DNA from: a bacterium
Lineage (GTDB): Bacteria > Acidobacteriota > Thermoanaerobaculia > Multivoradales > JAHEKO01
Direction of reading: 5' to 3'
Assembly (NCBI GenBank): GCA_024224155.1
Contig: JAAENP010000018.1
Span: 1 to 42,645 of the forward strand
DNA: 42,645 nucleotides
The notes under the pieces were generated by a model. It saw only the letters and a list, made by a program, of their open reading frames with translations, had not been told where the DNA came from and made no database searches. A program made the translations under genes and the position numbers. Below are positions 4,071 to 40,484 of the stretch, one piece after another (within the stretch, counting starts at the first letter, position 1; the number at the start of each line of letters is the position of its first letter).

Positions 4071-4154
4071 ACAGGACTCCCCGGTTGTTTCTCAATCGCG
4101 CCGCTAGGATATTCGGGAACGTCAGTCTCGGCAAGGCGAGGGACCGGGCAGCGC

Positions 4155-5513
4155 TCACTCTTCAAAGTTCGAATCGAGTAAACGGCTGAGATCCTGAACC
4201 ACCGATTCGTACTCCGGAAGCTCGGCTAGATTCAGGTACTCGTCGGGGTCGGCCGAATGATCGTAGAGCTCGACGCCCTCTCCGCCACCGTTCCACTCTG
4301 TGTAACGCCATCGCCCGGTGCGCACGGACTCGCCCTTGATGCTGCCGTGGGAGGCCTGGCTGAAAGCGGCGCGAGACCAATCGCGCAGCGGCTCCTCGAG
4401 TAGCGGCACAAGGCTTCGTCCTTGTAGATGGCTTGGAGGTTTCAGGCGTGCCAGGGCGACCAGGGTCGGGTAGATGTCCAGCAGCTCCACCAAGCGAGAC
4501 GATTTCTTGCGCTTGCGCTCCATCTTCGGCGCGTGAACCAGCAGCGGTACGCGGACCGACTGTTCGAACAGCGTGTCTTTTCCCCACCAATCGTGCTCAC
4601 CCAGATGGAACCCATGATCGGAAGTCAGCACGACAACGGTGTTGTTCCAACCCTCGACCCGATCGAGGACATCAAGGATCAAACCCAACTGCCGGTCTGT
4701 GAACGAAACGGCGGCATAGTAGGCTCGCAACAGCTCGCGGCGATCGCGCCGCGTTATCCTGGGCCAGAGTCCCAGGGCGGCTGGAAGCTCCTTGGAACGT
4801 TCGCCCGGTGGGTCGTGGAGTCTCAGCCGGCCTAGTCTATAGCGCCGGTAGTGTCGCTTCGGGACCACAAAAGGGGGATGGGGCTTCTGGAATCCCACAG
4901 CCAGGAAGAAGGGCTCCCCCGCCGCGTACAGGTTCTCGAGCGTCGCCACGGCTGAGGCCGCGACGCGGCCATCGGCAAAATCTCTGTCTTTGCCCTTCGC
5001 CGCTACCCAACTGGCCCACGGGATCTCGCCGCCGGTGACGTTCCGACCCTTGCCCTCTTTGGCCTCGCGTTTGCCGTGAGGGCGATGAAAGATGTCCCAG
5101 GACTGCGCGTCATGCCAGGATTCACCGCCGGAGTCGTGGAAGTTCTTGCCGATGCCGACGGTGACGTACCCCCGGCGGCGAAAGAACTGCGGCAACGTGA
5201 CCACTTCCGGAAGAAGCGTGCGAAAGTAAACCTCGTTGTTCAGAACGCCCGTCGAGTCGGGTCGCAGGCCGGTCAACATCGAGGTCCGGCTGCCGTTACA
5301 AGCGGGAAACTGACTGTAGGCGCGATCGAAGCGAACTGTCCGGTGCGCCAGGCGCTCGAGGTTAGGTGCCACCACCTGATCGTTTCCATAGGCGCCAAAC
5401 TGAGTCGCCAGATCGTCGATCGTAATGAGAACGACGTTGGGCCGCTTCGGAACGGCGGAGGCACTCGCGGCATCTACGCCCATCAAGAGCAGAACAAGAA
5501 CCGCCAGCCTCAT
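4155..5513 (-). CDS. Exported sulfatase, iduronate-2-sulfatase-like
   Basis: A sulfatase of 452 residues that would hydrolyse sulfate esters, probably of glycans, outside the cytoplasm. From the ATG at 5513 it opens with a signal peptide (MRLAVLVLLLMGVDAASASA). This start overlaps the stop of the upstream aldehyde dehydrogenase gene as ATGA, so I prefer it to a GTG three codons earlier. Metal-binding aspartates occur in LITIDDL (about residues 30-35) and in LTSDHGFHLGEH in the second half, and the HPPFVVP segment is typical of iduronate-sulfatase-like enzymes. The formylglycine site reads C72-N-G-S-R76 followed by TSMLTGLRPD. The usual motif is C-x-(P/A/S)-x-R, so a glycine replaces the normal third residue. 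It may still be matured, or the enzyme may be atypical. Confidence 0.9.
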   Translation of the reverse strand: MRLAVLVLLLMGVDAASASAVPKRPNVVLITIDDLATQFGAYGNDQVVAPNLERLAHRTVRFDRAYSQFPACNGSRTSMLTGLRPDSTGVLNNEVYFRTLLPEVVTLPQFFRRRGYVTVGIGKNFHDSGGESWHDAQSWDIFHRPHGKREAKEGKGRNVTGGEIPWASWVAAKGKDRDFADGRVAASAVATLENLYAAGEPFFLAVGFQKPHPPFVVPKRHYRRYRLGRLRLHDPPGERSKELPAALGLWPRITRRDRRELLRAYYAAVSFTDRQLGLILDVLDRVEGWNNTVVVLTSDHGFHLGEHDWWGKDTLFEQSVRVPLLVHAPKMERKRKKSSRLVELLDIYPTLVALARLKPPSHLQGRSLVPLLEEPLRDWSRAAFSQASHGSIKGESVRTGRWRYTEWNGGGEGVELYDHSADPDEYLNLAELPEYESVVQDLSRLLDSNFEE

Positions 5514-31197: not shown

Positions 31198-33279
31198 ATG
31201 CAGGTCGAAAGCCCTGAAAACATAAGGAATATCGCGGTCGCTGGCCACAGCGACACTGGTAAAACCACCCTTGTGAGCTCGCTTCTCTACGCGGGCGGCG
31301 TCGTCAACCGGCTCAACAAGGTCGAGGACGGCAACACCACCACCGATTTCGATGCTCAGGAGATCGAGCGCGGCATCTCCATCGGCCTGGCGCCGTGCTT
31401 CGTGCCCTGGAAGAGCTACAAGATCAACCTAATCGATACGCCCGGCTACTCGATCTTCTTCACCGAAACCCGCGCCGGCGCGCGGGCCGCCGACGCCGTC
31501 TTGCTGTGCGTCAACTCGGTTTCCGGCATCGAGGTCTCCACCGAGAAGGTCTGGGAGTACGCCGACGAGATCAAAGCCCCGGTGATGTTCCACCTGACCA
31601 AGATGGACCGCGAGCGCGCCGATCTCGAGCACATCCTGACCGAGCTCAGAGAGCGCTTCCACCGCAACGTGGTTCCGGTCCAGCTGCCGATGGGCCGCGA
31701 GGACGACTTCACCGGCATCATCGATCTGGTCACCGAGAAGGCGTTCGAGTTCGACAAGGATGGCAACGGCCGCGGCAAGGAAGTGCCCATCCCGGACTCG
31801 ATGGCCGACACCCTCGAGACCTATCGCACCCAGCTGATCGAAGCGGTCGCCGAAAGCGACGACGCTCTGCTGGAGAAGTTCTTCGAGGACGGCCTATCGG
31901 CCGAAGAGCTCTTCAACGGCCTGCGCCGGGCGATCCGCAAACATGAGGTTTTCCCGCTCACCCTGAGCTCGTCTCTTCACGGCGTCGGTCCGGCGGCCCT
32001 GCTCGACTCGATCGTCGAGTGCATGCCCAACCCCCTGGAACGAAAGACCTTCCCGGCGTTCAATATCGGTGACGAAGAGGTCGAGCTCGAAACCATCACC
32101 GACGGCCCGACGGCGGCCCTGGTCTTCAAGACTCTGAGCGACCCCTTCTCCGGCAAGCTCACCCTCTTCCGCGTGGTTCGCGGCACGGTCAGATCCGACA
32201 CGCCACTGTGGAACACCCAGAAAGAGACCGATGAGCGCCTCGGTCATCTGCTCTCGATGCAAGGCAAGCACGGCGAGGCCGTGCCTCATCTCATCACCGG
32301 TGATATCGGCGGTGTCGCCAAGCTCAAGAAGGCCGCGAGCGGAAACACGCTCTGCGACAAGAAGCAGCCGATCAAGCTCGGCTGGATCGCGGAGCGCGAG
32401 CCCGCCATCGCCTACGCCATCGAGCCCAAGGCCAAGGGTGACGAAGAGAAGATCGGCGAGGCCCTCCACCGCCTGATGGAAGAGGACATCACCCTCCACG
32501 CGGAGCGCGACCCCGAGACCGCCGAGTATCTACTCTCCGGCACCGGCCAGCTCCACATCGAGATCGCGGTCGCCAAGCTCAAGGAGCGGTTCAAGGTCGA
32601 GGTGGTGCTCCACCCCCCCAAGGTCCCCTACCGCGAGACCATTCGCAAGCCCGCCGACGGCCACGGGCGCCACAAGAAGCAGTCCGGCGGCCGCGGCCAG
32701 TTCGCCGATTGCCGGATCATCATGGAGCCCACGGAGCGCGGTGGAGACTTCGAGTTCCTCGACGAGATCTTCGGAGGCTCGATACCGCAGACCTATCGAC
32801 CCGCCGTCGAGAAAGGCATCCAGGAGGCCCGCAAGCGCGGTTTCCTCGCCGGCTACCCGGTGGTCGACTTCCGCGTCCGGCTCAAAGATGGCCAGTACCA
32901 TGACGTCGACTCCTCCGAGATGGCCTTCAAGATCGCCGGCTCGCTGGCGTTTAAAGACGCGATGGCCCGCGCCGCGGCGGTGATGCTCGAGCCGATCATG
33001 AAGGTCGAGATCAACACCTCGGACGAGTTCACCGGCGACATCATGAGCGACCTCGCCCAACGCCGCGGACGCCCGCAGGGCATGGAGACCAAGAGCGGCG
33101 CTCAGATCGTCAACGCCCTCGTCCCCATGGCCGAGATGCTCAACTACGACCCCGCTCTCACCGCCATGACCCAGGGCCGCTCCCGCTTCCACATGGAGTT
33201 CTCGCACTACGAGGAAGTCCCGCGAAACGTCCAGGACAAGCTGGTGGCCGAGGCACAGAAGGCGAAGGAAGAGGCGTAA
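31198..33279 (+). CDS. Elongation factor G-like GTPase (EF-G2 type)
   Basis: A 693-residue translational GTPase with the EF-G domain order: GTPase domain, domain II, and the C-terminal domains III-V (SGTGQLHIEIAVAKLKERF, then HKKQSGGRGQFAD and a YDPALTAMTQGRSRF end). The GTPase motifs depart from canonical EF-G: P-loop GHSDTGKTTL instead of AHIDAGKTTT, switch I RGISI instead of RGITI, DTPGY (D80-Y84) instead of DTPGH, and TKMD instead of NKCD or NKMD. The tyrosine replaces the histidine that promotes GTP hydrolysis. These changes mark the EF-G-like paralogues found beside a normal FusA in many bacteria. Its role is unclear and it is probably not the main translocase. Good AAGGAGG upstream; repeat copy C follows directly. 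Confidence 0.9.
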   Translation: MQVESPENIRNIAVAGHSDTGKTTLVSSLLYAGGVVNRLNKVEDGNTTTDFDAQEIERGISIGLAPCFVPWKSYKINLIDTPGYSIFFTETRAGARAADAVLLCVNSVSGIEVSTEKVWEYADEIKAPVMFHLTKMDRERADLEHILTELRERFHRNVVPVQLPMGREDDFTGIIDLVTEKAFEFDKDGNGRGKEVPIPDSMADTLETYRTQLIEAVAESDDALLEKFFEDGLSAEELFNGLRRAIRKHEVFPLTLSSSLHGVGPAALLDSIVECMPNPLERKTFPAFNIGDEEVELETITDGPTAALVFKTLSDPFSGKLTLFRVVRGTVRSDTPLWNTQKETDERLGHLLSMQGKHGEAVPHLITGDIGGVAKLKKAASGNTLCDKKQPIKLGWIAEREPAIAYAIEPKAKGDEEKIGEALHRLMEEDITLHAERDPETAEYLLSGTGQLHIEIAVAKLKERFKVEVVLHPPKVPYRETIRKPADGHGRHKKQSGGRGQFADCRIIMEPTERGGDFEFLDEIFGGSIPQTYRPAVEKGIQEARKRGFLAGYPVVDFRVRLKDGQYHDVDSSEMAFKIAGSLAFKDAMARAAAVMLEPIMKVEINTSDEFTGDIMSDLAQRRGRPQGMETKSGAQIVNALVPMAEMLNYDPALTAMTQGRSRFHMEFSHYEEVPRNVQDKLVAEAQKAKEEA

Positions 33280-33517: not shown

Positions 33518-33709
33518 GCCGGCCCTTCCTGCTCAGCGAGAGAGCTGAACGCATCGTGTTACCGTCGCCCGAAAGATTCACAATAATGGGTCCATCGGTG
33601 CTCTTATCGCAATATCCGATCGGAAGCGAGACAGCAGCGTTATCGTGCATTCTAGGTACGCATAACACGCCAATTCAGAGATGTCTTTTCCTCTACAGAG
33701 CCAGGCAGC
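33518..33709. other. Intergenic stretch between the repeat cluster and the cassette array
   Basis: I see no gene here. GC content falls visibly compared with the sequence to the left, and the first attC-like core follows at 33710. The sequence before it (CATAAC at 33661, then AT-rich DNA) could be the decayed first half of an attC site. Confidence 0.4.
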
Positions 33710-33811
33710 GTTAGGCTGTTTGCCACCGAAACCGGCCGAGGCCAAAGAGAACATGCAGCATTTGATTCACCGTTCGCATCCACCAACTGGATGCCGATTA
33801 ACATGTTAGGT
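33710..33811 (+). other. Two attC-type core sites, possibly bounding an ORF-less cassette
   Basis: GTTAGGC (33710-33716) and GTTAGGT (33805-33811) both fit the integron core consensus GTTRRRY and lie 95 bases apart. No convincing inverse core (RYYYAAC) precedes either, so both sites have lost their left half. The second core sets the left boundary of the DinB cassette. Confidence 0.4.
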
Positions 33812-33833
33812 ATCGCAGAGACGATAGAGACAG

Positions 33834-34322
33834 ATGAATGACGATCGTCGCATGCTTGAGGTAGCAATCGACCGGGTCCTGACCGGCCGAGACATTCACG
33901 TTGGGCCCGTGACGGCACTCGAGGGTCTGGACTGGGAAGTGGCTGGCAGGCAAACGGCCGGGTTCCCGCACTCGATTCTTCAGCTTGTCAACCATATGAC
34001 CTACTGGCAGCACTGGGTGGTGAAGTGGCTGGATGGGCAAGAGCCTCCGATTCCGGAACATGCCAGTGGCGGCTGGCCCGGAAGTGTCAGCCCAGCAACC
34101 GAAGCGGAGTGGGAAGCGGCAGTGGCAGGGTTCCTCAGGGAGTTAGATGCCCTAAATCGGCGGTCTCGCGGTGCGGATCTCTTGTCGCAGCTTGGAGAGA
34201 AGAGCCGGCTAGAAGTGCTTCAAGCGATTGCCGCACACAACAGCTATCACCTCGGTCAGGTGGTCGCTCTGCGGCAAATGCTTGGCGTGTGGCCAGCCCC
34301 TTCTGGTGGCCTGACGTGGTAG
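33834..34322 (+). CDS. DinB-family (YfiT-like) putative metalloprotein
   Basis: A 162-residue four-helix-bundle protein. The first motif HSILQLVNHMTYWQHW (about 47-62) and the second, AAHNSYHLGQVVALRQMLG (about 134-152), supply the histidines that bind a metal ion in the DinB/YfiT superfamily. The end, WPAPSGGLTW, is the typical C-terminus of this subfamily. Members include thiol-dependent transferases, but most have no known substrate. It is the first coding cassette of the array: a core site ends 22 bases upstream (33811) and a full attC follows 30 bases after the stop. The ATG at 33834 is the only start that keeps the family N-terminus. Confidence 0.88.
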   Translation: MNDDRRMLEVAIDRVLTGRDIHVGPVTALEGLDWEVAGRQTAGFPHSILQLVNHMTYWQHWVVKWLDGQEPPIPEHASGGWPGSVSPATEAEWEAAVAGFLRELDALNRRSRGADLLSQLGEKSRLEVLQAIAAHNSYHLGQVVALRQMLGVWPAPSGGLTW

Positions 34323-34352
34323 CCATCCAGACGGGAAGGAACGCGAGGCGAT

Positions 34353-34416
34353 GCCTAACAACTCGCTGGAGCGAACGCCGCTAGCGTGGCGCCGCTCAGC
34401 TCAAAATCCGTTAGGC
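34353..34416 (+). other. attC site of the DinB cassette (intact)
   Basis: A 64-base site close in form to the aadA-type attC. Inverse core GCCTAAC (34353-34359), core GTTAGGC (34410-34416). The arms GCTGGAGCG and CGCTCAGC pair with one unpaired G, the extrahelical base that sets strand choice for the integrase. Confidence 0.92.
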
Positions 34417-34430
34417 CTCATTGCGAACCA

Positions 34431-34465
34431 TAACGTTTGACGCTATTAACGTTATGCGTTAATAT
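34431..34465 (+). promoter_or_regulatory. higBA promoter and operator
   Basis: TTGACG (34437-34442), a 17-base spacer and TAATAT (34460-34465) form a strong promoter inside the cassette. A perfect inverted repeat, TATTAACG-TTATG-CGTTAATA (34444-34464), covers the spacer and most of the -10, so bound antitoxin would block polymerase. TAACGTT also recurs at 34431-34437 and 34448-34454. The expected transcription start is within a base or two of the higB GTG at 34472, so the mRNA is probably leaderless or nearly so. Confidence 0.75.
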
Positions 34466-34471
34466 TAGGCG

Positions 34472-34753
34472 GTGATCCGGAGCTTCCGCAACAAGGAAAG
34501 CGAGAAGCTCTTCGCCCGGCGGCGGAGCCGTGCTGTTCCGGGTGTATTGAGGAGAGCCGCTCTCCGGAAGCTCTTGATTTTAGATGCGGCGGAAGCGATT
34601 GAGGATCTGCGAGTGCCACCCGGAAACCGCCTGGAGAAGCTCAGAGGCGACCGCGCGGGGCAGCACAGTATCCGAATCAACGACCGGTACCGGATCTGTT
34701 TTGTTTGGAAGAGCGGTAGTGCCCACGATGTTGAGATCGTTGACTATCACTAG
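34472..34753 (+). CDS. higB: HigB-type toxin (RelE superfamily)
   Basis: A 93-residue toxin of the HigB/killer group, predicted to cut mRNA on the ribosome. Family features are the opening MIRSFRNKESEKLF, the central LILDAAEAIEDLRVPPGNRL followed by EKLRGD, and the end QHSIRINDRYRICFVW with a closing DVEIVDYH. The conserved H-S-I-R-I-N-x-R-Y-R stretch carries the residues thought to act on RNA. The start is GTG; no ATG exists in the frame, and the family N-terminus begins at this codon. Its antitoxin gene follows after eight bases. The toxin-first order is normal for hig systems. In cassette arrays such modules are common and are thought to prevent loss of neighbouring cassettes. Confidence 0.93.
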   Translation: MIRSFRNKESEKLFARRRSRAVPGVLRRAALRKLLILDAAEAIEDLRVPPGNRLEKLRGDRAGQHSIRINDRYRICFVWKSGSAHDVEIVDYH

Positions 34754-34761
34754 GAGTTGTC

Positions 34762-35067
34762 ATGTCGAAGCGAGCATTTGAGCCCATTCATCCCGGAGAA
34801 ATTCTACTCGAGGAGTTCTTGAAGCCTCTGGGCCTTAGCCAGTACCGGCTAGCGAAGGGCATTAGCGTTTCTCCGCGACGGATCAACGAAATCGTGCATG
34901 GCAAGCGCGCCGTGACCGCCGACACTGCACTTCGACTCGCTCGTTTTTTTGGAACGACCGATGGCTTCTGGCTGAATCTGCAGACACGTTTCGATCTCGA
35001 GTCTGAAAGGGATCGGCTAGGCAACCTACTCGACGCGCAGGTTGAAGTCCTGGCGAAGGCCGGATGA
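34762..35067 (+). CDS. higA: HigA-type antitoxin (XRE-family HTH)
   Basis: A 101-residue antitoxin. It starts with the family motif PIHPGEILLEEFLKPLGLSQ (about 8-27), followed by the HTH YRLAKGISVSPRRINEIVHG, and a C-terminal helical part with FFGTTDGFWLNLQTRFDLE. It would neutralise HigB and repress the operon through the palindrome at 34444-34464. ATG at 34762 follows GGAGTTGTC. The stop is followed one base later by the inverse core of the next attC, so toxin and antitoxin form a single two-gene cassette. Confidence 0.94.
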   Translation: MSKRAFEPIHPGEILLEEFLKPLGLSQYRLAKGISVSPRRINEIVHGKRAVTADTALRLARFFGTTDGFWLNLQTRFDLESERDRLGNLLDAQVEVLAKAG

Positions 35068-35068
35068 C

Positions 35069-35196
35069 GCCTAACCCCTCGCTGCACCGGACACCGCCTG
35101 CATGCGTTCTTCAACCGTAACCATGTTCGGGTTCACCAGTTCACTGCGGGTGGCCGCCTTCGCCAGCAGTGCTGGTGAGCTCAAACCTCGTTAGGC
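35069..35196 (+). other. attC site of the higBA cassette (intact, long)
   Basis: A 128-base site. Inverse core GCCTAAC (35069-35075), core GTTAGGC (35190-35196). The outer arms GCTGCACC and GGTGAGC pair with one unpaired G. It shares GCTGCACCGGACACCGCC with the sites at 36002 and 37213. Confidence 0.88.
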
Positions 35197-35203
35197 AGCA
35201 CTC

Positions 35204-35869
35204 GTGCCGGATACAGACGCCAAATGGACGGGCGAGATCGGGTGCGAAGGCGGGCCGATTCTCGTCGCGAACACCGATGACTTCCGACATTGGCACGGGG
35301 CAGACCCCCTTCCACTCGAAGCCAGGCGTGAGCTTCATTTCAGGATCGTTACCCTCGCAGATGGGCGCCGGCTGCACGCGGCCCTCGATCCCGCGAGCGA
35401 GTACGACCGTGCCATCCGAGATCTCGAGTTCGAAGCAGTCCATTCGTTCGGGCCTAACCGTACCTGCTATCTCTGGAGCGTCGAGCCGGGGCTGGTGGCA
35501 GTTTCGGTGAACCGCGGGCACGACCGGCTGCATTGGGCCCAAGTGAACTTCGCTGACGGTCCGTCGGACGTTGCCGACGCGTATGCCTACGCGGACGCGA
35601 GTGCAGCGCAGACATCGGGGCTCTCATACGCGGTGACTTCGGGGCCAGTCGTAGTAGCCTGGTCGCCCAACAGCGTCCGCGATCTCTCCTCTCCGGATGC
35701 CGCGTCACGGGCCACCACCGACGACATCCCGCGAATCCTTGATCTTGCCACCGGGGGCAGCGGAGCGTCACTCTGGCTCGATCCAGGTAGCTACCTCGCT
35801 TCATCCGGCTACCACGAAACCGAAGTATGGGGCGTCAGCTGGTGCACGCTCGAAAGGCGTGCTGCCTAA
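35204..35869 (+). CDS. Cassette-borne protein with weak resemblance to Imm21 immunity proteins
   Basis: A 221-residue soluble protein without signal or membrane segment. I do not recognise it with certainty. The N-terminal part (KWTGEIGCEGGPILVANTDD followed by FRHWHGAD) recalls the Imm21 immunity-protein family, which has a GGP motif and a W-x-G motif at similar spacing, and a YDRA segment follows. If so it would protect against a toxin from contact-dependent competition, and orphan immunity genes are plausible cassette cargo. The rest, with the GLSYAVTSGPVVVAWSPNSV stretch, is beta-rich. The GTG start lies seven bases after the previous attC core and has no ribosome binding site, so the start is uncertain. 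Its stop codon overlaps a half attC site. Confidence 0.6.
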   Translation: MPDTDAKWTGEIGCEGGPILVANTDDFRHWHGADPLPLEARRELHFRIVTLADGRRLHAALDPASEYDRAIRDLEFEAVHSFGPNRTCYLWSVEPGLVAVSVNRGHDRLHWAQVNFADGPSDVADAYAYADASAAQTSGLSYAVTSGPVVVAWSPNSVRDLSSPDAASRATTDDIPRILDLATGGSGASLWLDPGSYLASSGYHETEVWGVSWCTLERRAA

Positions 35870-35990
35870 AGAGCGCTTGCAGCTGACAACTCCCAAGCAA
35901 GAGCATCGAGCAGCACACCCTGGCGGCACTGCATCGCCTGCGCCCAGGCTGGCTTGGCACCGGCAGGGCGCATCAACCCCGTGCGCGGGA
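35864..35990 (+). other. Left half of an attC site, right half lost
   Basis: GCCTAAAGAGCGCTTGCAGC (35864-35883) looks like the left end of a different attC type, with inverse core GCCTAAA (one mismatch) overlapping the stop of the preceding gene. No matching core is found before 36002. The rest of the stretch to 36002 has no gene. Confidence 0.45.
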
Positions 35991-36001
35991 TTCCAAGGAG
36001 T

Positions 36002-36137
36002 CCATTCCATCACTGCACCGGGCACCGCCTCGCGTACTCCGGGCCGGGTATAGAATTCGGCGCGGTGGTTGAGTCTCTGAAGCCAGTACTCATCAGCACC
36101 GCGGGCGGTGCCGGTGTGCTCAAGATCCACTAGAGAG
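36002..36137 (+). other. Decayed attC site related to the one at 37213
   Basis: The inner arms are kept (GCACCGGGCACCGCC at 36015-36029 and GGCGGTGCCGGTGTGC near 36105-36120) and the sequence between them aligns well with 37213-37353, but both outer cores are gone: CCATTCCATC stands for the inverse core and ACTAGAGA for GTTAGGC. The site should not recombine, which would fix the neighbouring cassettes together. Confidence 0.6.
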
Positions 36138-36201
36138 CGCTGGAATGGTCGGCGAAGGCTTGCCCGATTCATACACCAACGCGAAATCGCGCGTCGCGTA
36201 G

Positions 36202-36660
36202 ATGCGAGCTCCGAGTTTCAATCAGTATCTCGTGCGCCGCGGGTATGATCTCCGCAGAGGCAGCGGGCCGTTCCTGTGGCGACTGTTCTTGGGGTCCTGG
36301 GTCCAGCCCGGCTTCCACCGGTTCTGGAGGGTTTGGAATCCCCTCTACGGGTATTTTCTGTACCGGCTGTATCTTGTCCTTGGTGGTAACCGCCACCGGC
36401 TGGTGGCTACGCTGACGGTCTTCGCTTCTTGCGGCTTTGTTCTGCACGATCTTCTTGTTTTTCTGTTCTCCGGCTACTTTTCTCTCGTTTGCACTTTCGG
36501 TTTTGTGTTCTTCGCCATCCTCTCTTTGCTGTCGGCTCGCTTCCAAAAGCTGCTTCGGCAGGGGGAATGGCCTGCTGCTGCTAACGCAGCCGCAAACATC
36601 GGGGCTATCATCGTTGGGTTGATTGGCGGTGTTTGGGCCAACAACATCCTTCTTGGATAG
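36202..36660 (+). CDS. Small membrane protein with MBOAT-like motifs
   Basis: A 152-residue membrane protein in clearly lower-GC sequence. After a short N-terminal part it reads PGFHRFWRVWNPLYGYFLYR and LYLVLGGNR, then VFASCGFVLHDLLVF, followed by hydrophobic segments to the C-terminus. The FWR-x-W-N and SCGF-x-x-H motifs, in this order, recall the two hallmark blocks of membrane-bound O-acyltransferases, whose histidine is catalytic. MBOAT enzymes have 400-500 residues and some ten membrane helices, so this would be a minimal version or a fragment kept as a core. I give this as a resemblance only. It starts at ATG 36202 with no clear ribosome binding site, and a short attC follows its stop after 64 bases. 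Confidence 0.65.
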   Translation: MRAPSFNQYLVRRGYDLRRGSGPFLWRLFLGSWVQPGFHRFWRVWNPLYGYFLYRLYLVLGGNRHRLVATLTVFASCGFVLHDLLVFLFSGYFSLVCTFGFVFFAILSLLSARFQKLLRQGEWPAAANAAANIGAIIVGLIGGVWANNILLG

Positions 36661-36723
36661 AGGCTGTTTGGTAGCAACTCACTACGCCTTGTCACCCGGA
36701 GAACTCCTGATGGACGCGGCGCC

Positions 36724-36784
36724 CTCTGACAAATCGCTGAAGCCGACGCGCTCCCGCGCGCGGCTTGGCTCTGGTCCGTTAGGC
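36724..36784 (+). other. attC site, short hairpin type
   Basis: Core GTTAGGC (36778-36784). Inverse core CTCTGAC (36724-36730) has mismatches to RYYYAAC. The arm AAGCCGACGCGC pairs with GCGCGCGGCTT across a TCCC loop, with an unpaired G next to it, as in aadA-type sites. Confidence 0.8.
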
Positions 36785-36807
36785 AGCTTTCCAGAGGTGT
36801 TTCGAGA

Positions 36808-37218
36808 ATGACCATTCGAGGTCACGTTGGAGTCTTTCTGATCGCCACCGTCGTCTGGGCCGGCTTCTGGATCGCTGGCCTGCCTTCCTATTATCAGCAG
36901 TACTCCAAGCTTCTGATGATTTGGTTTGACTCGCTTGTCCTGATTCCCATTGCCGCCATCGTCTATTTCGTTCTGAGGCGCCTGCGACCCGAGAGGCGGC
37001 TTACGATCGCGCTTTGGCTGGCTTTCTATTTCACATTTCCGCTGGCGATCTATGACTGGCTCTACTGCGGGCTTTACCTGGGTCACGGTATTCGGTTCAT
37101 CTCGAGATATTGGTATCTGACCGTTTACTACGCGATACCCTGGGTTCTCTTGCCACTTATGGCACTTCTTCTCAATCGCATGCGCCCAGGGCAAATGGAG
37201 AATTCGAACGCCGCCTAA
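36808..37218 (+). CDS. Small four-helix membrane protein of unknown function
   Basis: I do not recognise this 136-residue protein. Four hydrophobic segments can be seen, at about residues 8-27, 36-57, 66-90 and 101-123, joined by short basic loops (LRRLRPERR), which suggests an integral inner-membrane protein. It has no motif I can link to an enzyme or transporter. The ATG at 36808 lies 24 bases after the previous attC core, and its TAA overlaps the inverse core of the next attC, so the cassette holds only this gene. Base composition is lower in GC than the chromosome around the array. Confidence 0.75.
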   Translation: MTIRGHVGVFLIATVVWAGFWIAGLPSYYQQYSKLLMIWFDSLVLIPIAAIVYFVLRRLRPERRLTIALWLAFYFTFPLAIYDWLYCGLYLGHGIRFISRYWYLTVYYAIPWVLLPLMALLLNRMRPGQMENSNAA

Positions 37219-37353
37219 GCACTCGTTGCACCGGACACCGCCTCGCGTGCTTCGGGCCGGGTGTAGACTTCGGTGCAGTGGTTAGCTTCAGAAGCGTAGT
37301 CCTGACCAGCATCGCCAGCGGTGCCGGTGAGCTCAGAATCCGATCCGTTACGT
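37213..37353 (+). other. attC site, long type, slightly degenerate
   Basis: A 141-base site. Inverse core GCCTAAG (37213-37219) and core GTTACGT (37347-37353) each have one mismatch. Arms TTGCACCGGACACCGCC and GGTGCCGGTGAGC pair with an unpaired G. It aligns with 36002-36137. Confidence 0.75.
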
Positions 37354-37391
37354 GCCGCTAGGAAACGGAGTAGAAACATGGGAGGACTCAG

Positions 37392-37874
37392 ATGAAAAAG
37401 AGAACACTGGTACTCGGGTTTTGTCTGTCAGCGATCGTGTTGACCTTGCCAGCTTCGGCAGGCAATGGCAAAGAAGCCCTCATCAGTGAACTTGATGCCC
37501 TGGGGCAGAAGATGGAGCGCTCGATGGTTGAGGGCGACATCGAGACAACGCTCTCGTACTACGCGGATGATGCAGTCCTTCTTCCGAATTGGGGCGAGAA
37601 AGTCGTTGGCAAAGAGGCCATTCGGAAGAAGATGGAGTCCGATCGCGAGGGCGGAATGAGGTTTGAATCCTTTAGTGGGAAAACTGAGGACGCCTGGGAA
37701 TGCGATGGCAAGGTCTATGCGATTGGTACATACGCGCTCTCATTGAGGTTGCCCGGTATAGAAAGACCGGTTGCCGACAAGGGCAAGTTCATCGCGGTGT
37801 GGCGGCGTGGCCACGACGGCAAGCTGGCGGTCATTTACGACATGTGGAATACCGACATTGCCATGGGTAACTAG
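37392..37874 (+). CDS. Exported SnoaL/NTF2-like protein (DUF4440 type)
   Basis: A 160-residue protein with a signal peptide (MKKRTLVLGFCLSAIVLTLP, cleavage near ASA) and an NTF2-like domain. The family layout is visible: helix ELDALGQKMERSMVEGDIET, then TLSYYADDAVLLPNWGEKVV, the GKEAIRKKM helix, and beta strands ending KFIAVWRRGHDGKLAVIYDM. Such domains form a cone-shaped pocket and may bind or isomerise small ligands; the ligand is unknown. It has the best ribosome binding site in the array (GGAGG at 37381-37385, seven bases before ATG). An exported small protein is a frequent kind of cassette cargo. Confidence 0.88.
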   Translation: MKKRTLVLGFCLSAIVLTLPASAGNGKEALISELDALGQKMERSMVEGDIETTLSYYADDAVLLPNWGEKVVGKEAIRKKMESDREGGMRFESFSGKTEDAWECDGKVYAIGTYALSLRLPGIERPVADKGKFIAVWRRGHDGKLAVIYDMWNTDIAMGN

Positions 37875-37879
37875 GCACC

Positions 37880-37909
37880 TGCTCTGTGTGAGCTCAATAT
37901 CCGTTAGAC
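37880..37909 (+). other. Truncated attC site, right half only
   Basis: TGTGAGCTCAATATCC followed by core GTTAGAC (37903-37909) is the right end of an attC. The left half with the inverse core is missing; only about 28 bases separate the preceding stop codon from the core. Confidence 0.6.
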
Positions 37910-37913
37910 GGCG

Positions 37914-38360
37914 ATGGGTAATGCTCTAGACCTTCGACCGGCAACTCCTGAGGATCTCGACTCGCTCTTTGAGTTGTATCGCACCGTCTTTCGCTTCCAC
38001 ATCCAGAGGATCTGGGGCTGGAACGAGGAGTGGCAGCGCTCCAACTTCAGCCGCGAGTTTGAGTCTTCGTCGACCACGGTCGTCGAGGTTGCCGGCCGCA
38101 CGGCAGGATACGTGCAAACCGACAGGGAATCGAAGCGGCTCTATCTTCGAAACATCGCGCTGTATCCTGATATTCAGGGGCAGGGAATCGGCACGTTTCT
38201 TATTGAGCAGTTGCAGCAAGAGTCGAGAGAGTGCGGGGTTCCTCTCGAGCTTGTCTTGTTCCGCACGAATCCCAGGGCGCGCGAGCTCTATGAGCGGCTA
38301 GGATTTAAACAAACCGGCCAGACGGACGCCTTTGTAAAGATGTCGTGGCATGCGGCCTAA
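37914..38360 (+). CDS. GNAT-family N-acetyltransferase
   Basis: A 148-residue acetyltransferase that would transfer an acetyl group from acetyl-CoA to an amine. Motif A is LRNIALYPDIQGQGIGTFLI (about 81-100), with the Q-x-x-G-x-G pyrophosphate loop; motif B follows as LVLFRTNPRARELYERLGFK. The N-terminal half, with FRFHIQRIWGWNEEWQRSNF, resembles a group seen in environmental cassettes. The substrate is unknown; there is no hint of an aminoglycoside-type enzyme. The ATG lies only four bases after the attC core (37909) with no ribosome binding site. The stop overlaps the left end of the next attC remnant. Confidence 0.9.
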   Translation: MGNALDLRPATPEDLDSLFELYRTVFRFHIQRIWGWNEEWQRSNFSREFESSSTTVVEVAGRTAGYVQTDRESKRLYLRNIALYPDIQGQGIGTFLIEQLQQESRECGVPLELVLFRTNPRARELYERLGFKQTGQTDAFVKMSWHAA

Positions 38361-38375
38361 CCACTCTCTGCACGG
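38355..38375 (+). other. Truncated attC site, left half only
   Basis: Inverse core GCCTAAC (38355-38361), overlapping the GNAT stop codon, is followed by CACTCTCTGCACGGACC, like the left arm of the long sites. The right half and core are absent, and the next gene starts 15 bases further on. Confidence 0.55.
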
Positions 38376-38389
38376 ACCAGGAGGGCACA

Positions 38390-38941
38390 ATGGGAAAGGT
38401 CTACGAATACATCGATGACAAGCTGGCGGAGTGGATCGCGCAGCAGCACGTCTTCTTCGTGGCAACAGCACCGCTGAGCGCTGAGGGGCATGTCAACAGC
38501 TCTCCCAAGGGTGGGGACTCGTTCAGAGTAGTCAGTGGCTCTGAAGTCGCCTACCAGGACTACACAGGCAGTGGAGTCGAAACCATCGCTCATCTGCGCG
38601 AGAACGGACGCATCGTAATCATGTTCTGCGCGTTCAAAGGCCCACCGAAGATCGTGAGGCTTCATGGTCACGGCACAGTTGTCACCAACGACCACACACG
38701 GTACGCAGAACTGGCGCGTCACTTCCCCTCAAACCCCGGTACACGTTCAATCATTCATGTGTCCGTAGAGCGGATTTCCGATTCTTGCGGCTACGCGGTA
38801 CCTCTTTGCGAGTTCAAGAGGCCCAGAGACACGCTTGATCGGTGGGCCGTAAGCAAAGGAGATGAACGACTGAAGGAGTATCGTCGGGAGAACAACGCGC
38901 AAAGCCTTGATGGTCTTCCGGGGATCGAGATAGATGCCTAG
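38390..38941 (+). CDS. Pyridoxamine 5'-phosphate oxidase-family flavoprotein
   Basis: A 183-residue protein of the FMN-binding split-barrel (PPOX) superfamily. Recognisable segments are FFVATAPLSAEGHVNSSPKG, SEVAYQDYTGSGVETIAHLR, NGRIVIMFCAFKGPPKIVRL and HGHGTVV, which form the barrel and flavin site. This subgroup is separate from the true PdxH vitamin B6 enzyme, and its substrate is unknown. I chose the ATG at 38390, which has AGGAGGG four bases upstream; a longer frame begins inside the preceding attC remnant. Its last codons overlap the start of the VOC-like gene (ATGCCTAG), so the two are translated together. Confidence 0.88.
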   Translation: MGKVYEYIDDKLAEWIAQQHVFFVATAPLSAEGHVNSSPKGGDSFRVVSGSEVAYQDYTGSGVETIAHLRENGRIVIMFCAFKGPPKIVRLHGHGTVVTNDHTRYAELARHFPSNPGTRSIIHVSVERISDSCGYAVPLCEFKRPRDTLDRWAVSKGDERLKEYRRENNAQSLDGLPGIEIDA

Positions 38942-39749: not shown

Positions 39750-40484
39750 GTGATCAACGTCGTTCGCTTCCTCCTCTTCTCTCTCGCTCTGGCCGCAGTG
39801 CCGGCCTCCCTGTCGGCCGACTGCGTGATCCTTCTGCACGGGCTGCTTCGCACTTCTGCTTCCATGGAGAAAGCGGCAGCCGCCTTCGAGGCCCGGGGCT
39901 ATACGACTGCAAACATCGACTACCCGTCTCGCGACCTTCCGGTCGAGGATCTTGCCCCGCTCGCGCTCGAGGCAGGACTGGCCGCGTGCCCGGACGAGGG
40001 GACCATACATTTCGTCACCCACTCGCTTGGCGGAATCCTCGTGAGGTACTACCTCGAGAGCCGGCAGATCCCCCGTTTGGGTCGCGTCGTCATGCTCGCG
40101 CCTCCGAACCAGGGCAGCGAGGTCGTCGACCGGTTGAGCGACGTTCCGGGCTTCGAGGCCATGAACGGCCCCGCCGGTCTTCAGCTGGGAACGGACGAAC
40201 ACAGTGTCCCGTCCAGACTGGGGCCGGTCAGCTACGAGGTCGGGATCATCGCGGGCACCGAAACGTTCAACCCGATTCTCTCTCAGTACTTGCCGAATCC
40301 CGATGACGGCAAAGTCTCCGTTGAGAACACGAAGGTGGAAGGAATGAGCGACTTCATCGTCTTGCCACATTCGCATCCCTTCATCATGCAGGCGCCGGCC
40401 GCTATCGAGCAGGCTGTGTCGTTCATCGAATCCGGCCGGTTCGTGCACGACGCACCGGACGAGCCGTCAGAACCCCAGCGCTAG
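39750..40484 (+). CDS. Exported alpha/beta-hydrolase, lipase-like
   Basis: A 244-residue protein with a signal peptide (MINVVRFLLFSLALAAVPAS, cleavage near LSA). The fold motifs are complete: oxyanion segment VILLHGLLRTSASM, nucleophile elbow in FVTHSLGGILVRYYL (Ser of HSLGG near residue 93), and the Asp and His of the triad likely in the DDGKVSVENTKVEG and VLPHSHPFIM regions. The layout resembles small triacylglycerol lipase-like or YpfH-type hydrolases; the substrate is unknown. The start is GTG at 39750. The gene is convergent with the beta-helix gene; their stops are six bases apart. Confidence 0.88.
   Translation: MINVVRFLLFSLALAAVPASLSADCVILLHGLLRTSASMEKAAAAFEARGYTTANIDYPSRDLPVEDLAPLALEAGLAACPDEGTIHFVTHSLGGILVRYYLESRQIPRLGRVVMLAPPNQGSEVVDRLSDVPGFEAMNGPAGLQLGTDEHSVPSRLGPVSYEVGIIAGTETFNPILSQYLPNPDDGKVSVENTKVEGMSDFIVLPHSHPFIMQAPAAIEQAVSFIESGRFVHDAPDEPSEPQR

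Follow-up and report, generated by a model that had tools for sequence, protein, structure and literature searches.

Can a row of gene cassettes with no integrase beside it be a true integron and, if so, what would have supplied it? The question is raised by an array downstream of the EF-G-type gene fusA in a stretch of 42,645 nucleotides, hereafter the window (assembly GCA_024224155.1, contig JAAENP010000018.1, positions 1 to 42,645 of the forward strand), from a bacterium of the Acidobacteriota (Thermoanaerobaculia; Multivoradales; JAHEKO01). A preliminary description, made from the letters alone, had seen here an integron cassette array without an integrase, partly frozen by decayed attC sites. 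We conclude that the window almost certainly holds a genuine integron, namely the integrase-less platform of a sedentary chromosomal integron. The explanation that fits best as a whole, and which we consider quite probable, is an attI platform without the integrase gene intI, carrying a cassette array and perhaps loaded in trans, now or until recently, by the integrase (IntI) encoded on contig C369 of the same genome.

An array of attC sites headed by attI

The attC sites were sought with a covariance model (R1) made from nine sites on contigs C198 and C283 of the same genome, with the window sites excluded. The search of the window returned five sites with E values from 4e-33 to 2e-7, all on the + strand, and one weak, shrunken site. 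The recombination sites and their remnants are as follows.

33766-33811, +, attI: a 44-base element TTCACCG...TAACATGTTAG at 33766-33809, plus the end of the core GTTAGGT (33805-33811)
34353-34416, +, attC 1, intact; R1 62.3 bits, E 1.5e-17
35069-35196, +, attC 2, intact; left box matches the previous core at 7 of 7 positions; R1 98.5 bits, E 6e-29
35864-35870, +, broken attC; left box GCCTAAA, 6 of 7 to the previous core; right half not recognised
36000-36135, +, attC with mutated outer boxes (GTCCATT / ACTAGAG) and inner stem kept; R1 91.0 bits, E 1.4e-26
36724-36784, +, attC with intact right box and left box CTCTGAC; R1 30.3 bits, E 1.9e-07
37213-37353, +, attC with left box GCCTAAG and displaced right box (GTTACGT at 37347); R1 111.7 bits, E 4.2e-33 at 37213-37344
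37865-37909, +, shrunken attC, well preserved at the right end only (GTTAGAC at 37903); R1 weak, 12.0 bits, E 0.11 at 37869-37909
38355-38386, +, left half of an attC (GCCTAAC...), where the recognisable array stops

The array first described from the letters is thus real by a model built outside the window, and the coordinates given for two intact sites (34353-34416 and 35069-35196) and two near-intact ones (36724-36784 and 37213-37353) were correct almost to the base. Its list of halves and remnants needs revision. The entries at 35864, in the region of 37880 (37865-37909) and at 38355 stand by their left-box matches to the previous core (6, 5 and 6 of 7, respectively), while the supposed half at 36002 is in fact the full-length site 36000-36135, and the supposed remnant at 33805 belongs to the attI core. 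The heptamer GTTAGGC at 33710, listed as a further boundary, was rejected because nothing similar occurs at the corresponding place in other attI leaders. The site at 36000-36135 is probably dead. The three variable bases of the next left box, CTCTGAC at 36724, match the decayed core that precedes it (ACTAGAG), which suggests from sequence that this core was once live.

Across the whole genome (5.7 Mb, 576 contigs), with 150 of 1245 candidates scored, R1 gave 14 matches at E<=1, comprising the nine model sites (seven on C198, two on C283), four window sites and one stray match (E 0.034); the site at 36724 was missed in this search. Folding energies of the bottom strand for the five attC sites (z -2.1, -1.6, -4.0, -2.2 and -0.2) are weak support by themselves, and the top strand of the first two sites gave z -2.4 and -2.6. 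Covariation within the stems of a site was uninformative, the outer boxes of one attC being derived from two different cassettes: no pairs changed on both sides, and pairing was as good or better in 472 of 500 shuffles. The single Rfam match in the window was a tRNA.

Just before the first cassette lies the 44-base element, first seen when the region downstream of fusA was compared with that of a congener (genome G001). A pattern built from four copies in the fetched loci was scanned, with up to three mismatches, over a set of 59 genomes that included our own (G000). Five places had at most one mismatch, all of them in three congeners, with none in the 56 other genomes, and the reversed pattern used as a control had no match in the 59. 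The copies lie at 33766-33809 of the window, G000:C198:18673-18716, G001:C42:9824-9867 (-), G002:C132:2036-2079 and G002:C94:20049-20092 (-); the last is independent, being absent from the four that made the pattern. Three of the four places outside the window stand before an array or beside an intI remnant, and one stands before a single gene with no attC found. Between the attI core and the first attC box, all 7 positions agree on C198 and in G001, and 6 of 7 in the window. In G002:C132 the element begins about 260 bases beyond the last 26 codons of an intI that is 88% identical there to the G000 gene product. A similar site (TAACAAGTTAG / CGAATAACAAGTTAGAC) lies about 190 bases beyond the intI match in G044, a genome of a different family, with a core equal to the first attC box. 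In the stretch from intI to the first attC, exact cores stand at four of the five loci compared (G033, twice; G044; G052; G018; not G025). From these comparisons we read the 44-base element as attI, so that the array in the window is headed by an attI.

This element bears directly on another explanation, in which the cluster would have arisen by off-target insertion into an ordinary part of the chromosome that lacked an attI. Insertion of this kind has been put forward as a source of such clusters (PMC8618304), and no intI is adjacent to the array. Against this, an element common to four other places lies exactly at the array start, with its core nearly or fully in register; the attI already largely refutes this explanation, and we regard it as very improbable.

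Two further observations were made around the attI. Its middle part (window 33773-33800) can form a hairpin (fold z -2.9) that, judged by eye, the other four copies partly keep with changed bases. Upstream lies a palindromic stretch (GTTATCGTGC...GTACGCATAAC; window 33637-33667) that is similar to one beyond the 3' end of the C369 intI (27 bases, 81%) and is perhaps a regulatory site.

Cassette register

The core before an integron cassette and the left outer box of the attC that ends the cassette are cut from the same circle, and this left box should therefore pair with the preceding core, not with the core of its own site. This register was examined at 61 of 78 listed attC hits from eleven genomes of the order; the 17 omitted hits were weak, truncated, distant from the others or without a second hit on the same stretch. 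Under a filter of our own choosing, 34 of 48 successive pairs were usable, the pair formed by the window attI and first attC not being among them. Of 102 variable positions in left boxes, 86 matched the preceding core, a number that none of 20000 shuffles reached (mean 59.6), while matches to the core of the same site were at chance (42 of the 61 sites usable; 76 of 126 positions; p 0.61; mean of the shuffles 76.6). The chain of the window, from attI onward, matched at 6, 7, 6, 4, 6, 5 and 6 of 7 positions. Left boxes complementary to the preceding core are thus found, as for cassettes inserted as circles. This match is the trace of IntI-mediated insertion. The array was therefore built up by an integron integrase, and its later decay has mainly affected the part farther from the start.

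The integrase and the other integron loci of the genome

No integrase was found in the window, as the preliminary description had stated: the genome's own IntI gave nothing better than E 2.1, and intI is not adjacent to attI here. That picture was incomplete in that the array starts at attI and an intact intI lies elsewhere in the assembly. The genome encodes one full integron integrase (C369:227-1342, - strand; 371 aa; TIGR02249, 446 bits against a cut-off of 265). Residues 52-371 align over the whole length of the integron integrase structure 2a3v, and the protein carries the R, HxxR, H and Y motifs. Placement of this IntI in a tree was weakly supported (84/89), and nothing is built on it.

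The intI of C369 is divergent from a prolyl oligopeptidase gene. Because the contig with the intI remnant in G002 has the same neighbour (83-86% identity), we take the prolyl oligopeptidase locus to be the likely home locus, where G000 has an intact intI and G002 a truncated one. Contig C369 ends about 226 bases past the intI stop, short of the place where attI would be expected. A second attI array without an integrase of its own lies on contig C198, so that the assembly of this genome contains two attI places, and the intact intI is beside neither. The leader on C198 resembles those found after intI (to C369, 65% over 183 bases; to G002:C132, 60% over 343 bases). Six genes of the C198 array gave one weak Pfam match, to HNH. 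Between a subtilase gene and the attI leader on this contig, a tRNA-like fragment was noted by eye (about 4115-4170 of the fetched stretch), and ARAGORN found no whole tRNA there.

Since the draft comprises 576 contigs and drafts overestimate integrase-less arrays (PMC9024848), the missing integrase could be an artefact of assembly or binning, either through an array contig foreign to the genome or through a split complete integron that looks integrase-less, and the break of C369 shortly after intI fits the latter. The array is nevertheless internal to a contig of 42.6 kb with other genes on both sides, gene order upstream matches that in G001 and G002, and the window attC sites fit a model made from C198 and C283. 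We consider an artefact highly implausible, and the array lies, as first proposed, in an Acidobacteriota chromosome. No end overlaps of 12-140 bases were found among the ends compared of C369, C198, C283 and C18, the far ends of C283, C198 and C369 lying outside the comparison.

Supply in trans by the C369 IntI is the simplest account because there is one intact IntI, there are two attI arrays without it, and a congener has other cassettes at the same place; judged from these sequences, we see the case for it as evenly balanced. Downstream of fusA there is, almost certainly, a platform made of a leader and attI, with no intI; about seven cassettes follow, closed by attC sites or by what is left of them, and an integron integrase put them in place. 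Under the explanation that we favour, cassettes would enter at 33805, newest first, and older ones would shift away and lose their sites. Distal sites would mutate in their outer boxes and distal cassettes would become fixed genes, while the newest, next to attI, would keep intact sites. The platform beside fusA would be loaded, now or until recently, in trans by the C369 IntI from its home locus.

An extension of this account, which we put forward tentatively, is a split integron in which one intI serves several scattered attI platforms: those at fusA and on C198, and that of the C369 home locus, where an attI is assumed. The attI module itself would then have spread, its neighbour being fusA in G000 and G001 but ribonucleotide reductase genes in G002, a part of the proposal that we likewise think somewhat doubtful. 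If true, a split integron could deal cassettes out to different expression contexts. The attI copy of G002:C94 lies directly downstream of the ribonucleotide reductase genes and is followed by one FRG-domain gene (317 aa), with no attC found by the model.

Comparison with related genomes

Integrase genes were detected at E<=1e-60 in 15 of the 59 genomes, two of them partial (G003, G046), and attC matches at E<=0.001 in 21 (56 candidates scored per genome, with stricter filters). Nine genomes had both, and 12 of the 21 had attC without intI at that threshold, these being drafts in which some single matches, such as that of G004, are weak. The small-gene pair of 77 and 89 aa, with a toxin-antitoxin-like layout, occurs in G001:C50, G002:C208 and G006:C62 at 73-89% identity; it probably reflects cassette transfer between genera, as judged from sequence, G006 belonging to another genus with an EF-G 67% identical to that of the window. 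Cassette genes are common to arrays of different genomes, the 89 aa gene being 89% identical between G001:C50 and G002:C208 and 74% in G006:C62. Also in G006, the intI contig C248 breaks off exactly at ...ACACGTTAG, some 415 bases beyond the intI match. This looks like an assembly break at the point where attI takes up cassettes, which would be expected if the cassettes there vary in the population.

At the fusA locus itself, gene order upstream of the array matches G001 and G002. In G001 (contig C42) a fusA ortholog 87% identical to ours is followed by attI and three attC sites with no intI beside them, an attI array with different genes: a tblastn search with eight window cassette genes against the 10.3 kb downstream of the G001 fusA gave a best E value of 0.056. 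Because no cassette gene of the window was found at the same spot in the congener, the contents of this spot appear to have differed over time. In G002 a degraded attC-like match directly follows the fusA stop (20.8 bits, E 0.0013); no attC was found after fusA within the fetched stretch in G009 and G008, and the contigs of G006 and G010 end shortly after fusA. The mixture of live-looking and decayed attC sites first described is present. The idea of a partly frozen array fits its distal part best, and agrees less well with the two intact first sites and with the congener's lack of these cassettes at the same spot.

These comparisons also bear on whether the array is a dead remnant, whose intI once lay in cis, was deleted and left only decay behind, as in many Xanthomonas strains, with the C369 intI unrelated to it. 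The decayed or cut boxes at 35864, 36000, 37213, 37865 and 38355 agree with such a history. Deletion of intI with attI kept does occur in the genus (G002:C132, 26 codons left), C198 keeps a leader like those following intI, loss of intI has been suggested as one way in which such arrays arise (PMC8618304), and Xanthomonas often carries an inactive intI (PMC12444791). Yet the window holds no trace of intI, the spacer between fusA and attI is too short for the gene (486 bases here, 423 in G001), the window cassette genes were not found in the G001 stretch, and the two attC sites next to attI are intact. We hold this history to be possible, though less than probable.

Several observations weigh against the explanation that we favour. 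Recombination itself was not observed, only its traces, and the first pair of the window, between the attI core and the first attC box, is imperfect at 6 of 7. SnoaL-like proteins occur in both the window and the G001 stretch, though without a sequence match, and no window cassette gene occurs at high identity in another array, the best being the SnoaL-like one (26% to G009:C435). G001 has no detected intI and G002 only a remnant; supply in trans there would therefore be past or its source unassembled. The window attI is nearer to that of G002:C94 (38 of 44) than to the G001:C42 copy at the same locus (30 of 44). Over the whole spacer between fusA and attI, homology between G000 and G001 is clear, with an alignment score of -11 against -45 for shuffles (sd 7.2; maximum -21.5 of 300), but in fixed windows the leader was not similar beyond shuffles (z 0.8, 1.0 and 1.7). 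Orthology of the fusA platform between the two genomes thus appears not to be clean. Each platform may have arrived on its own, or the attI part may have been exchanged. In addition, intI may once have been at the locus. From this pattern of similarity, attI modules may have moved or been exchanged.

Cassette genes and flanks

As first described, the cassette genes all point one way, on the + strand, and most cassettes hold a single gene; one holds two (higB-higA). The genes and flanks are as follows.

31198-33279, +, EF-G-type gene fusA, left flank; NF009381, 888 bits
33806-34352, +, cassette 1; gene at 33834-34322, DinB superfamily, 162 aa; PF12867, 5.4e-10
34472-35067, +, cassette 2, two genes: higB-like toxin at 34472-34753 (PF05015, 1.5e-19) and HTH antitoxin-like gene at 34762-35067 (PF01381, 1.8e-11)
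35204-35869, +, cassette 3 gene, 221 aa, no family match
36202-36660, +, cassette gene, 152 aa, no family match
36808-37218, +, cassette gene, 136 aa, no family match
37392-37874, +, cassette gene, SnoaL/DUF4440-like, 160 aa; PF14534, 4.6e-09
37914-38360, +, cassette gene, GNAT acetyltransferase, 148 aa; PF00583, 3.3e-15
39750-40484, +, alpha/beta-hydrolase-like gene, right flank

A scan of ten cassette proteins, eight of them from the window, for defence families gave two weak matches. Homologs of the right-flank hydrolase lie less than 4 kb from attC in two other genera (G009:C136, 14516-15205; G006:C62, 7381-8007), and the right flank of the array may be older than the left.

Comparison with known integron systems

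The preliminary description had held that an array in an Acidobacteriota chromosome would be of interest; this is not new in itself, as attC sites from Acidobacteria chromosomes had been described by covariance models in 2021 (PMC8352920). Arrays without an integrase are frequent and can be targeted in trans, and draft genomes inflate their number (PMC9668308, PMC9024848); one survey found them about as numerous as complete integrons (PMC9024848, PMC8618304). As attI is poorly described beyond class 1 integrons, standard software skips it (PMC9024848). Integrons in Acidobacteria and integrase-less arrays being known, the unusual part is the presence of two attI platforms apart from the sole intact intI. 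We found no report of several attI platforms in one genome in the literature searched, most subscription journals being outside its reach. The genus offers a defined attI, a genome that combines two attI arrays lacking intI with one intact intI, and a congener in which this spot holds other cassettes. It thereby allows a direct test of whether arrays of this type are dead relics or platforms that still work and are supplied in trans.

The locus resembles the sedentary chromosomal integrons of Vibrio, Xanthomonas and Spirochaetes in its attI, its one-direction cassettes ending in attC, its lineage-specific attC family, its toxin-antitoxin cassette and the presence of intI in the genome. It differs from them in that the window platform has attI without an adjacent intI, and in that neither of the two assembled attI places lies beside an intact one.

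In another layout, the inverted-integrase arrangement as in spirochaetes, the cassettes lie 3' of intI. The order intI remnant, leader, attI and gene in one direction in G002:C132 resembles it, as do intI and same-direction downstream attC sites in G033, G044, G025 and G052. In contrast, G018, from the same order, has the classical divergent layout.

The Xanthomonas integron at ilvD with an inactivated intI is alike in that a cassette array was retained after integrase function was lost. There, however, the inactivated intI is still at its locus, and strains in which it is damaged alike usually have the same array (PMC12444791), whereas the window locus has no trace of intI and the congener's cassettes do not match.

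By definition the array also belongs to the clusters of attC sites lacking integron integrase (CALIN), as the window contains at least two attC sites and no integrase nearby. Three origins are listed for such clusters, namely off-target insertion, loss of intI and rearrangement (PMC8618304), and CALINs at conserved chromosomal loci have been described in Xanthomonas, together with inactivated intI (PMC12444791). Unlike these, the array in the window is headed by an attI, which makes it a docking platform and more than a stray cluster.

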